Origin: Shewanella phaeophyticola | GTDB taxonomy: Bacteria; Pseudomonadota; Gammaproteobacteria; Enterobacterales; Shewanellaceae | Length of the DNA stretch: 64,000 bases | Assembly: GCF_025398315.1 (NCBI RefSeq) | Contig: NZ_JAODOQ010000001.1 | Span: forward strand, 3,596,001-3,660,000 | Direction of reading: 5' to 3' | Shown: positions 17,536-36,635 of the stretch, piece by piece | How the letters are laid out: every line of letters starts with the position of its first letter | Position numbering within the stretch: position 1 is the first letter of the stretch | Made by a program: the position numbers and the translations under genes | Notes under the pieces: model-generated | Told to the model about the DNA's origin: nothing | Databases searched by the model: none | Seen by the model: the letters and a program-made list of their open reading frames with translations, nothing else

Positions 17536-17660
17536 GTTGAATATCCTAAATCAATAATGCGTGCAAGTTTATCAAATTAGCCCCCGAATAGCAGCGCCAA
17601 CATAGCTACAGTTACGGTTTTCTATTATCATATTTGCAACTTAGCCTCAAAGGACGATCT

Positions 17661-17693
17661 TATACCATTTCCATTAATTATGTGACCAATCAG
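17661..17693. repeat. Solo terminal repeat of the window's MITE family
   Basis: This 33-base stretch is identical, in reverse orientation, to the right end of the element at 22485-22746. No matching left end is found nearby, so it looks like a remnant or a single-ended fragment. Confidence 0.75.
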
Positions 17694-20942: not shown

Positions 20943-21181
20943 AGACCAACAAGAATACTAACCGCTGAAGTGCTCATCACTCATTGCGTTTATGATGTCA
21001 TCATTGGGGCTGTTCCCTTCACTGAGGGGAACACTTATCACGTTTCACGTATTGCCGATCGATCCCACCGTAACTGAAATCTTTTTGTCATAATTTCGCC
21101 ATAATATTGCCTACTTCAGTAATACTGTCGTGCACAAAGCTGCACGAAATTCAACATTGGCAATGCTAAGAGGCCTTAATC

Positions 21182-23168
21182 ATGATCGCACCACACCTTG
21201 CCAAAGCGCTTGAAGACATTATTGAACAACAGTCGATCGAGGCAGTATTTCAACCCATCTTTAATGTATCAACCAACCAACTTCATGGCTTTGAAGCACT
21301 CAGTCGCGGACTAAAAGACACTGAATTACATTCGCCTTTTGCATTATTTTCAACCGCAGAAAAGCAAGGGAAACTAAGTGAACTTGAAACCTTATGCCGC
21401 AATATTTCAATACATGCGTTTGATGCGAGACAACTTAACGGTAAATTATTCATTAATATTTCACCTAAGGCATTATTAGATCCAAACCATCCTAAAGGCA
21501 TCACATTACAGTTAATCAAACAACTCGGCATAGCCCCTAACAATGTAGTGATTGAACTGTCTGAGCAATATCCCGCAGACGACATTGATTTACTTAAATC
21601 ATGCTTAAATCATTATCGTAATCAAGGTTTTTTAACAGCGATTGACGACCTTGGCGCCGGTTATTCTGGCCTACGTTTATGGTCCGAACTCGCACCTGAT
21701 TATGTCAAAATTGATCGTCACTTTATTCATCAAATCGACATGACAGCGGTAAAACAAGAATTTGTACGCTCCATTGTCGAACTTTGTCAAAATCTAACAT
21801 GTAAAGTGATTGCCGAAGGCATAGAAACCAATGAAGAACTCACAACCTTAAAACAATTAGGTGTGACCTATGGTCAAGGTTACTTTTTAGGCAAACCTGC
21901 TATTCAGCCTCAACAGCACTTTACCCATACCGAACCCAATTTGATTTATCAGCCACATACGCGATACTGCGACACAGCAGAAAGTTTATGCATAAATGCA
22001 GTAACCGCTTCATCAAATACTCGGCTAAAAAAGCTCAGCTTACAATTTTCAGAGCAACCCGCATTGCAGTCCATTGTAATTGTTGATAACGACCTTGTGC
22101 TAGGCCTTATCAATCGCAGTGCATTATTAGAATTGTTTAGCACCCCATATGGCCGCTCACTTCACGAAAATCACCCAGCTCATATCGTCATGGATACTGA
22201 AGTATTACAAATTGATGCTAATGAACCATTAATCAATGTCAGCCAATTACTGACGTCAGATAGCGTTAACAACGTCGCACAACAATTTATTATTTTGCGT
22301 CACCAAAAACTTATCGGCATAGGTCACACAAAAGACTTGTTACAGCGGATAACAGAACACAGAATAAAGATGGCACGGCATGCAAACCCACTCACAAACT
22401 TGCCTGGTAATGTCCCCATACAGGAAGAACTTAAACGCCTAAAACTGCAAAATAAATCGTATTATTTAGCCTATTTAGATTTAATACCAATTCCACTAAT
22501 TATCTGGTCATTCAGCGGGAATTCTGTACCTTCTAAGCAAGTAATAGGATTGTAGGCATAGTTGCTCTACGTCAAAATACTATTAAGCAGCATAGAAGGT
22601 ACAGAAACCCGCCTTGCAGGAGACGCTCAGACAGTCCATTTCTTTGTTGCATTGCCTTAGAAGGGAATAACCATTATTTCAACAATGCGCCTCAAACTGA
22701 ACAGTCTGAGCGACTCTGATTGGTCACATAATTAATGGAAATGGTATAAGCCACTTTAAACCCTATAACGATGTTTATGGATTTTTTCGTGGAGATGAAG
22801 TCATTCAACTATTGGCTCATTTATTACTTCCACATCAAAGCGATCAATGCTTTGTAGGCCATATTGGTGGCGATGATTTTGTAATGATAAGCATGCAAGA
22901 TGATACGTTATTAACATGCCAAAGTATTATTGAACAATTTGAACAACATAAAATAAGTTTTTACCAGCACACTCATTGGCAGGCTCAATCCATGTCAGCT
23001 CATGACCGTCAAGGTCTTCCTTTTCAATATCCTTTGGTCTCATTATCTATTGGGGTGTTACCGCCCCAAATTACTCAGCATGCTACCGAGTATGAAATAT
23101 CAACGCTCAGTGCTCAAGCTAAAAAACTTGCCAAAAGCGCTAGCAATGGACTTTATCTATATGAATAA
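21182..23168 (+). pseudogene. EAL-CBS-GGDEF cyclic-di-GMP protein, split by a MITE
   Basis: The intact gene encoded an EAL phosphodiesterase domain (residues 1-250: FEALSRG, VIELSEQ, AIDDLGAGYSGLRLW, KIDRHFIHQI, EGIET, QGYFLGKP), a CBS pair near 260-400, and a GGDEF domain. The GGDEF domain is split: its start HANPLTNLPGNVPIQEEL and YLDL lie before the element, and HFKPYNDVYGFFRGDEVI and GHIGGDDFVMIS lie after it. Removing the element and one copy of the 3-bp target restores DLSHFKPYND in frame. The first 430 or so residues, with all EAL motifs, could still be made as a truncated protein of 457 residues with a MITE-encoded tail. The catalytic sites look complete, so the truncated form may keep phosphodiesterase activity. 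Confidence 0.9.
22485..22746 (+). mobile_element. MITE, 262 bp, inserted in the EAL-GGDEF gene
   Basis: The ends form imperfect 31-bp inverted repeats beginning TACCA, with 25 of 31 positions matching. A 3-bp duplication TAA flanks the element (22482-22484 and 22747-22749). An inner pair, CTGTACCTTCT at 22524-22534 and its exact complement at 22594-22604, makes a long hairpin. No transposase is encoded, so it is non-autonomous. A relative sits at 36176-36621. The 3-bp TNA-type duplication would suit an IS5-family transposase, but no autonomous partner is in the window. Confidence 0.85.
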
Positions 23169-23218
23169 AAGGCAGGGTCTATCTAAAGTAAACATTGCCT
23201 AAAAAGAGTAACCATTGG

Positions 23219-23743
23219 TTATAATTTAGGTTCAACGCTCTTTTTCAACCAATCGGTAAACAAGGTCGTTTCATATTGGAATGGCCTGTCGTTTAAACGG
23301 TGCGAGTTAAACATAAAGCTCATGTCGGTAATCTTCTCATCACCAGCAAGAATCACCTTATCGCCCTCATTAACGGTGTAACTAAACGTCGCTCTTGGTG
23401 GGTATAAATCCTTTACAATACGTAAATCGCCAGGCGTCGCACCAAAAGTTGGCCGCATATCACCGGCTAAATCTAGGTTCGTCACTTGCATATGCAAGGT
23501 TTGCCCAGGCTTAAGTGATTTTTCAGCTTGTTTGTTAATGTTTTTAGTAAGGGTGTCAAATAGGCGAGTCTCAAAACGAGATTGGCGTTCGGTTGACGTT
23601 TTTATATCACGAAAATCCTTTGGACTTTGCCATTCAATTTTTACTACGCCAGCTTCAGTTATAGGATTAGGCTCAATGGCATCTTCAGCCATTGCGACTG
23701 GAGCCACAAATGCAGACGCTAACAGTAAATATTTTATATTCAT
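23219..23743 (-). CDS. DUF3016 exported protein
   Basis: A 174-residue periplasmic protein. The start at 23743 has GGAG eight bases upstream, and the signal peptide ends VAPVAMAED. The body contains WQSPKDFRDIKTSTERQS and PPRATFSYTV, typical of DUF3016, whose function is unknown. It reads leftward and is not clearly linked to its neighbours. Confidence 0.82.
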   Translation of the reverse strand: MNIKYLLLASAFVAPVAMAEDAIEPNPITEAGVVKIEWQSPKDFRDIKTSTERQSRFETRLFDTLTKNINKQAEKSLKPGQTLHMQVTNLDLAGDMRPTFGATPGDLRIVKDLYPPRATFSYTVNEGDKVILAGDEKITDMSFMFNSHRLNDRPFQYETTLFTDWLKKSVEPKL

Positions 23744-23893
23744 AATTGATCTCCAATATGCCAACACGTTATCTCTATCAATGCCAATGCCGTAAATAGT
23801 GAAGTTGAAAAGCGATAGAATAACCTTGATATATCCACTTTAACGCCAACAAGCTGAACCAAGCCTTAACAGAATGGGGATTAAATGTGACAC

Positions 23894-24403
23894 TTAAAAT
23901 GGAAATCGATCGCTCAATAAAGGATAGGTTTGGCGCATTATTTTAGGTTTAGTACTGAATTTTTTACCCGCTGGAGTGTGTTGGCCTGACGGCACAAAAG
24001 GCAACTCTTGCCCTGTTCTGTCCTCATATATTTGCCCTGCGATAAGATCATAATCTTCCACAAAAGGATAGGCGTAATCGTCAACAAGAGGCCATAGGTC
24101 GAGTTCGCCCAAAATGTCAGGATTATCTACTATTTTATCGTACCATTGCTGCCCTAACGACAATAAAAAACATCTAAATTCAGCAAAACCATAATCCGAA
24201 TCGCACCCAGTAATAATGTAGGCTGCGCCCCAAACCGACCACAAATAGCTGCGACGTAATTGTTGTCCCATCATTTTATCAAACGCGTTAAGTGACTCAT
24301 CATCTAAAAGTTGTAATTTATCGCGTAATTGCTGTGCCACTTCATCAGAAGATAAGCTTGGTTGTTCGCGCGTTACCAGCGCCCAAAAATCGGTTTCTGT
24401 CAT
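23894..24403 (-). CDS. DUF4240 domain protein
   Basis: A 169-residue cytoplasmic protein. The start at 24403 (MTETDFWALV) fits the usual DUF4240 opening, and an upstream extension in the same frame is unlikely to be real. The domain segments SYLWSVWGAAYIITGCDSD and FAEFRCFLLSLGQQWYD near residues 53-95 match the family pattern of WGAAY and DGF-type strings. The function of the family is unknown; some members sit with WGR-domain or immunity proteins. No partner toxin is seen here. It is leftward and divergent from the small membrane protein. Confidence 0.78.
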   Translation of the reverse strand: MTETDFWALVTREQPSLSSDEVAQQLRDKLQLLDDESLNAFDKMMGQQLRRSYLWSVWGAAYIITGCDSDYGFAEFRCFLLSLGQQWYDKIVDNPDILGELDLWPLVDDYAYPFVEDYDLIAGQIYEDRTGQELPFVPSGQHTPAGKKFSTKPKIMRQTYPLLSDRFPF

Positions 24404-36048: not shown

Positions 36049-36175
36049 TATTATTATCCTCAGTGATACAAAGCGTTACCTAAGTATACTAACTAACAGC
36101 AGGCTAACAATAAAGATTAACATTGCGATAACAAAAACACCGTTATGCCAAGCGAGTTAACCGCTGCGAGTATAA

Positions 36176-36621
36176 TACCAATTCCATTAATTATCTGGTC
36201 ATTCAGCGGGAGTTCTGTGTCTTCTAGGCAAGGAATAGAATTGTAGGCATAGTTGTTCTCGGCAACTGCTCCTGCGTTGCTCTACCTCCTGCGTCCATGC
36301 AGTCGTCGGCAACTGCTCCTGCGTTGCTCTACCTCCTGCGTCCATGCAGTCGTCGGCAACTGCTCCTGCGTTGCTCTACATCCTGCGTCCATGCAGTCGT
36401 CGGCAACTGCTCCTGCGTTGCTCTACATCCTGCATCCATGCAGTTGTACGTCAAAATGCTATTAAACAGCATAGAAAGCACAAAAAACCGCCTTGCAGGA
36501 GATAATCAGACCGTTCATTTCTTTGTTGCATTGCCTTAAAAGGAAATATTATTTCAACAATGCGCGTCAAACTGAACAATCTGAGTGACTCTGAATGGTC
36601 ACATAATTAATGGAATGGGTA
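36176..36621 (+). mobile_element. MITE, 446 bp, with internal tandem array
   Basis: Same family as the element at 22485. Its 31-bp end repeats match at 27 of 31 positions and it is flanked by TAA on both sides (36173-36175 and 36622-36624). It lies between the SRPBCC and CWC genes, so no gene is split. The extra length compared with the 262-bp copy is explained by the 47-bp tandem array. There is no transposase. The open frame seen across the array comes only from the repeats. Confidence 0.88.
36260..36447. repeat. Four tandem copies of a 47-bp unit inside a MITE
   Basis: Four units of 47 bases each (36260-36306, 36307-36353, 36354-36400, 36401-36447) that differ at only a few bases. A part of the unit is present once in the other MITE. 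There are no spacers, so it is not a CRISPR array. The length can change by recombination. Confidence 0.93.
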
Positions 36622-36635
36622 TAACTAACGGTTAA

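Follow-up and report, generated by a model that had tools for sequence, protein, structure and literature searches.

An EAL-CBS-GGDEF gene in the window (the whole 64,000-nucleotide stretch of DNA analysed here, contig C1:3596001-3660000 of a 4.79-Mb genome) is interrupted by a MITE that inserted by transposition at a TNA target, in this case TAA, and whose most likely mover, acting in trans, is a DDE transposase of the IS630 type that recognises TACCA-type ends. We put the probability of this reading at about 0.88. The gene insertion is ordinary in kind; of more interest is a 47-bp unit that lies nested in sibling copies of the same MITE.

The insertion and its empty site

The interruption at 22482-22749 consists of a TAA, a 262-bp MITE and a second TAA, and the preliminary description, which had proposed a 262-bp element splitting the gene with a 3-bp TAA duplication, was right both in its coordinates and in taking this for a real insertion. 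The element, which we call MITE-A, occupies 22485-22746 on the forward strand, and the two copies of the target-site duplication, which have no strand, lie at 22482-22484 and 22747-22749. Its ends, TACCAATTCCACTAATTA and TACCATTTCCATTAATTA, are imperfect inverted repeats, with the left terminal repeat TACCAATTCCACTAATTATCTGGTCA at 22485-22510 on the + strand and the right terminal repeat, TACCATTTCCATTAATTATGTGACCA on the - strand, at 22721-22746. Between them lie two predicted hairpins, one at 22522-22606 (arms 22522-22538 and 22590-22606, 94% complementary) and one at 22620-22716 (arms 22620-22641 and 22695-22716, 82% complementary), and the element as a whole folds at -54.5 kcal/mol with DNA parameters, far more stably than its shuffles (z = -9.08). 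The list of open reading frames holds none of at least 60 aa wholly within the element. Terminal inverted repeats, the lack of coding capacity, a target-site duplication, copy number and an empty site are thus all found together, as is characteristic of a MITE.

Excision of the element together with one TAA restores ...YLAYLDLSHFKPYND... within a 573-residue frame, so that the in-frame rebuild described earlier holds. The earlier reading had been made to depend on two points, that relatives have the site empty and that the element's ends turn up elsewhere, and both proved true. All 42 related loci retrieved, which were picked by similarity to residues 1-433 only and are all labelled Shewanella, are uninterrupted, with the equivalent stretch ending FKPYND, and the end patterns match at 118 places in the own genome (60 + 58, with at most two mismatches) as against none for a reversed-pattern control. 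The comparison genomes are other Shewanella species rather than a second strain of the window species, and the nearest empty site is that of S. inventionis (L113), at 98.7% identity over 385 nt of joined flanks.

This close match belongs to a larger block. Compared in 250-base steps, about 3.3 kb of the window, from roughly 20950 to 24215, is 93-99% identical to the S. inventionis locus; outside the block the identity is only 62-84%, the block edges are sharp, and the same steps taken against two further loci (L114 and L115) give no identity peak. Judging from these identities, the block covering the EAL gene was probably exchanged recently between the two species. The S. inventionis copy of the block lacks the MITE insertion.

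The truncated gene and its product

The open reading frame that remains upstream (21182-22555, + strand) encodes 457 aa, of which 434 are native, comprising by the ORF list and Pfam the EAL domain, a weakly scoring CBS region and the beginning of the GGDEF domain, and 23 are encoded by the element. The stranded 3' part of the gene (22750-23168, + strand) carries the rest of the GGDEF domain with a GGDDF motif, as judged by Pfam (GGDEF, 3.1e-08) and by frame continuity with relatives. The whole Pfam EAL domain is present in the truncated product (residues 9-239, 7.1e-54), and in this the preliminary description, which took the EAL part to be intact, is confirmed. Its naming of the domains stands for EAL and GGDEF, the latter being detectable in the S. 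inventionis protein (Pfam, 6.8e-13), and is less secure for CBS, whose score is 23.4 bits in the window protein (cut-off 24) and 21.7 in a full-length relative. Relatives of the protein with solved structures are EAL and GGDEF domains, and among the best 25 of 26 NCBIfam matches no equivalog reached its cut-off for the gene's protein.

Active diguanylate cyclases carry the motif GG[DE]EF, with E at the fourth position, and an RxxD inhibitory site upstream. The window GGDEF sequence has neither the E at this position nor the upstream RxxD, and the motif reads GGDDF in 42 of 42 relatives, which argues against a standard cyclase and makes the earlier suggestion of a bifunctional protein doubtful. 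With GGDDF and no RxxD, a regulatory, GTP-sensing GGDEF domain would be at least as likely as a cyclase.

Compared with S. inventionis, the 433 codons upstream of the insertion show 18 synonymous and 12 non-synonymous differences, and the 141 codons downstream show base differences of which 7 are synonymous and 2 non-synonymous. By these counts the lesion looks either young or harmless, with no sign of decay yet in the downstream part. The cell would keep an EAL domain minus its C-terminal GGDEF domain, in a protein predicted to end 23 residues into the element, and the effect could be either an unregulated phosphodiesterase or loss of function. The second outcome, in which the insertion destroyed the gene by making the truncated protein unstable or inactive, so that the locus is a young pseudogene, has close to an even chance. 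It would follow readily from the splitting of the GGDEF domain and the gain of a foreign 23-residue tail. Moreover, the window copy is the sole one of 53 MITE-A copies in a frame open for at least 60 codons on both sides (the runner-up reaches 40, in a test blind to genes broken by sequencing indels), as would be expected if genic insertions were usually harmful or short-lived. What speaks against a pseudogene is that the EAL domain is complete and that there is no clear decay, although a very recent insertion might not yet show any.

The MITE-A family and its likely transposase

A 268-bp query returned 51 matching pieces in the own genome, and 53 copies were delimited from fetched loci, a set that does not include the second copy in the window. 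Equal 3-bp flanks border 51 of the 53 (TAA 35, TTA 10, TGA 4, TCA 2) and unequal flanks the other 2. All but one of the copies measure 174-638 bp; the exception is L099, a hybrid of MITE and insertion sequence. The second window copy, at 36176-36621 on the + strand, is flanked by TAA at 36173-36175 and 36622-36624 and holds four 47-bp units, and a solitary right end of about 33 bp at 17660-17692 is apparently a remnant. At two other places (L302 and L306; G000:C1:625000-626100 and 1224000-1224900) a MITE-A has inserted into a copy of MITE-B, a different MITE, in an instance of nested transposition.

With one genome taken per species, MITE-A matches were found in 27 of 60 genomes, the own genome included, and in 4 of 25 genera; among the matches listed, identity is mostly close to 70% and many cover the element in full. 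No match was found in the plasmid and phage collections, and the literature searched held no description of the element. Eight unit-free copies in S. inventionis are 97-99% identical to the window copy despite far more diverged host DNA, so that the MITE has either passed between species or multiplied very recently in each of them. None of 17 S. inventionis loci examined for an insertion site common to the two genomes had both of its flanks matched by those of a single own copy, in a weak test that covers 17 loci out of 42 matches between genomes 62-84% alike around the block; in flank checks, one own flank was unmatched in S. inventionis and one S. inventionis flank was 81% identical in the own genome. 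Three neighbourhoods are common to both Shewanella genomes with the MITE on opposite sides of the shared DNA (L184/L017, L182/L038 and L171/L032).

A link to a transposase is provided by the hybrid copy. Here, pieces of an IS630-type transposase (HTH_33 and HTH_32, with DDE_3 below its cut-off) lie between TAA-flanked ends TACCAATTACATTA.../TACCATTTACATTAATTA..., in an insertion sequence that adjoins the left half of a MITE-A and whose right end equals the MITE-A right end at 17 of 18 bases. At 2135-2206 of the same locus, an IS630-type right end (2135-2152) is followed by three head-to-tail copies of the 18-bp terminal repeat. Relatives of the 159-residue N-terminal transposase piece occur in 15 of 36 genomes, the own genome included, where a search with this piece found one transposase match, a gene in pieces, and no intact partner. 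We scanned 31 transposase loci (30 from the search with the N-terminal piece and L099) for ends, detecting those that start with TACC only. Equal flanks were found at 4 loci, which represent 3 places, L099 and L205 being one and the same, with a left end there that belongs to the MITE; 3 loci had unequal flanks and 24 gave nothing. At transposase loci L210 and L211, TACC ends are bordered by equal flanks, TAA or TTA.

IS630 elements duplicate TA and not TNA. The MITE-A duplications depart from this rule, being TNA, with TGA or TCA in 6 of 53 copies, and several insertion-sequence groups give 3-bp, TNA-like duplications where classical IS630 gives TA. It could therefore be that a transposase of another family, one that makes 3-bp duplications, moved MITE-A and that the resemblance to IS630-type ends is secondary, a reading to which the finding of a single partner gene, in pieces, in the own genome also lends itself. 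We consider it improbable, because the right end of the hybrid's insertion sequence is one base off that of MITE-A in 18 and because at L210 and L211 transposases of this type go together with TACC ends and equal flanks of TAA or TTA. On the basis of these ends, mobilisation by an IS630-type enzyme is favoured despite the TNA duplication: an IS630-type DDE transposase with TACCA-type end recognition, its identity inferred, would act on MITE-A in trans.

A 47-bp unit nested in MITE-A and elsewhere

Sibling copies of MITE-A carry between 0 and 8 units of 47 bp at a single junction, TAGTTGCTCT^ACGTC. In the window copy, which holds no unit, this junction is empty and falls at 22568^22569, where siblings hold 1-8 units. 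The length is exactly 262 + 47n in 41 of the 53 copies; the other 12 include lengths of 308, 313, 381, 452 and 471 bp, with small indels or decayed units, short copies of 174 and 180 bp, and the hybrid. With up to six mismatches allowed, a threshold that misses decayed units, 15 copies have no unit (among them L032 and L099, which have no readable junction), 25 have one, 6 have two, 3 have three, 2 have four, and one copy each has six and eight. The array of four in the second window copy lies at 36260-36447 on the - strand, on which its loops read NGGA. Among 43 junction-spanning MITE-A loci from other genomes (50 given), 32 are unit-free, a single unit is present in 10, and part of a unit in 1. 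Since the relatives that have diverged most lack the unit, its insertion is probably the derived state, and by this comparison the empty junction of the window copy is probably ancestral. On this reading a separate 47-bp twin-hairpin element further invaded many siblings at one fixed place.

The unit is not confined to MITE-A. It occurs 109 times in the own genome with at most three mismatches, and among the matches listed 16 sites lie outside delimited MITE-A copies, 14 of them starting with the MITE-B left part TACCAATCCGCATTAGAAT..., one in a diverged MITE-A and one in another context. It was also found in another family of the same bacterial order (G047), where it lies within a MITE, in MITE-like elements that large Pseudoalteromonas plasmids carry, and in DNA matching annotated IS91-family transposases (L186), a relative of which (L347) lacks exactly those 47 bp at ACCCT^. 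In a further case a 48-nt unit is nested within another unit at GTTGCTCT^ACC (L328), and L330 is probably similar. One locus of the own genome (L316; G000:C1:4714900-4715800) is a chimera in which the left half of a MITE-B and an end of a MITE-A are joined via a unit array, which suggests that the unit can act as a recombination point. On the Moellerella plasmid pW18-2-a (L297), a partial unit lies in frame in a BREX pglX gene, where it is read as DCMDAGGRATQ and the frame is open in the stretch seen; among the matches listed, a match of this type is also present in one Salmonella plasmid and in 2 of 5426 E. coli genomes. No phage record matched the unit, and a phage feature was rejected on this ground; three viral contigs matched it exactly. 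In the literature searched, no description of the unit's letters was found.

On either strand the unit folds as two hairpins. For a set of 29 distinct 41-mers, drawn from fetched loci by a mismatch pattern that takes no account of structure, we counted 11 compensatory double changes (against a null mean of 0.19, with none of 10000 as high), which fall on three pairs and are not independent events, as well as 7 wobble and 9 breaking changes. Counts from a second alignment, A1, are partly circular, its rows having been chosen for having stems and partly selected by loop letters, so that the invariance of its loops is biased. A covariance model based on A1 matched 55 of 143 genomes of the class at E <= 0.001 and 31 at E <= 1e-10, the 31 including the own genome and 7 that supplied rows to the model. 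In a draw of 120 genomes from the phylum it matched 46 and 9 at the same thresholds, figures that include five genomes outside the class (G429, G465, G468, G491 and G519); isolated weak hits, in either draw, probably arose by chance. More distant two-hairpin relatives with the same or similar loop letters and different stems were seen at four loci (L238, L263, L123 and L307). Six unit loci gave no Rfam match at gathering score, and L238 at a relaxed threshold gave three weak matches, all below gathering scores; a known RNA family was rejected for the loci tested.

How the unit could move

Unit insertions leave no target duplication. At 38 sites, partly homologous to one another and not independent, the four bases that precede the junction are Y (33), Y (34), C (31) and T (35). 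The absence of a duplication, the short pyrimidine target, the hairpins near both ends and the self-nesting would together fit an HUH/Y1 single-strand mechanism, and tandem growth in 47-bp steps may occur by slippage or recombination. We tentatively suggest, at somewhat less than even odds, that the 47-bp unit is an independent transposable element and one of the smallest known, which inserts in single-stranded form and without trace 3' of YYCT, is carried along by unrelated MITEs and by insertion sequences throughout Pseudomonadota, depends on an enzyme other than a resident RAYT, and has an architecture unlike that of REPs or REPINs. Insertion into hairpin loops was discarded as a general rule, since the base pairs that span an empty junction number 8.5 on average, as against 8.45 in the control (p = 0.66, 38 sites); a loop-like insertion context was seen only in some MITE contexts.

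The part of PMC8266576 on which we draw describes TnpA_REP as cutting at CT and requiring GTAG. In most A1 rows the reverse-complement strand of the unit has GGTAGA before hairpin 1, the others having ATAG, TTAG, GTCG or something more different, and CT is found beside the unit (C at -2 in 31 of 38 sites, T at -1 in 35 of 38) on the strand opposite the GTAG. A Y1_Tnp match is present in 13 of 15 carrier genomes, and in the own genome there is one partial match, to family positions 33-118 of 121. None of 30 Y1 loci scanned holds a cognate RAYT flanked by the unit; the sole unit-like match among them lies within a separate MITE downstream of the gene (L278), and a REP mobilised by a resident RAYT partner is accordingly not supported. 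Because CT and GTAG are on opposite strands and none of the 30 Y1 loci is flanked by the unit, we do not file it as a REP. At one locus (L338), a gene that appears RAYT-like by eye, for which no ORF of at least 100 aa is listed, starts about 420 bp from a unit, and the unrelated sequence between them resembles, also by eye, the start of RNase P RNA.

Instead of being mobile DNA, the unit might be a conserved RNA part, such as a CsrA decoy with GGA hairpins, whose spread was due to ordinary recombination alone. The CsrA/RsmE consensus resembles the ANGGATG of the unit's second hairpin, which is kept in A1 with N variable (loop letters having partly guided the choice of A1 rows); NGGA is the loop sequence of both hairpins on one strand, the stems covary, and the L316 chimera joins two MITEs at units. 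Ordinary recombination fits poorly with insertions that have matching empty sites in unrelated DNA, namely MITE-A, the IS91-type transposase DNA and the unit itself, and we regard such an RNA part as quite unlikely.

Discussion

An assembly artefact, in which a repeat and the gene were joined as a chimera, is scarcely credible: the element is highly repeated and the estimated completeness of the genome is only 90.97%, but a 3-bp duplication of the same kind is found in 50 other copies, the frame is restored perfectly, and a single 4.76-Mb contig carries both gene halves. As a genuine insertion, the window copy adds one more MITE in a signalling gene, notable mainly as the sole long-frame copy of 53. 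The MITE-A family, on the other hand, allows dozens of filled sites to be set against matching empty ones within one genome, over a range of 0 to 8 unit copies. The spread of REP-like hairpin repeats is called poorly understood in the part of PMC8266576 cited here, and at the MITE-A sites it could be tested with precisely placed junctions, a consensus for the target and a probable ancestral state. If the unit does move independently, very small DNA hairpins would jump between unrelated transposons and bacterial families, and could serve as recombination points at which new chimeric MITEs are made.

MITE-A resembles the IS630-derived MITEs of bacteria in being short, noncoding and mostly intergenic, with imperfect inverted IS630-like ends, many copies and a short duplication; it differs from them in its 3-bp TNA duplication, as opposed to TA, and in the nested 47-bp unit or array present in many copies. 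The interrupted gene is likewise comparable to those for EAL/GGDEF proteins with a degenerate GGDEF, in which an EAL domain stands beside a non-canonical GGDEF domain, but its domain order is EAL-CBS-GGDEF.

The 47-bp unit shares with the GTAG/CGTC-tagged REPs and their RAYTs, as presented in the parts of PMC3733652 and PMC8266576 used here, small covarying hairpins, many copies and a CT edge; in most units, though not in all, one strand has GTAG beside a hairpin, and some REPs of PMC3733652 are described there as lying inside palindromes. Whereas the REPs of these accounts are one palindrome or an inverted pair, the unit consists of two different hairpins in fixed order. It also departs from them in forming head-to-tail arrays, in being near-identical across families, in having its CT edge and GTAG on opposite strands, and in having a single partial Y1 match in its own genome. 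BrickBuilt, a P. gingivalis element, is, like MITE-A, a MITE with a variable tandem array inside; its repeat is 23 nt long and, in the portion of PMC4596501 referred to here, always intergenic. The 47-bp twin-hairpin unit, in contrast, is also found outside MITE-A, in other MITEs and in many genera.
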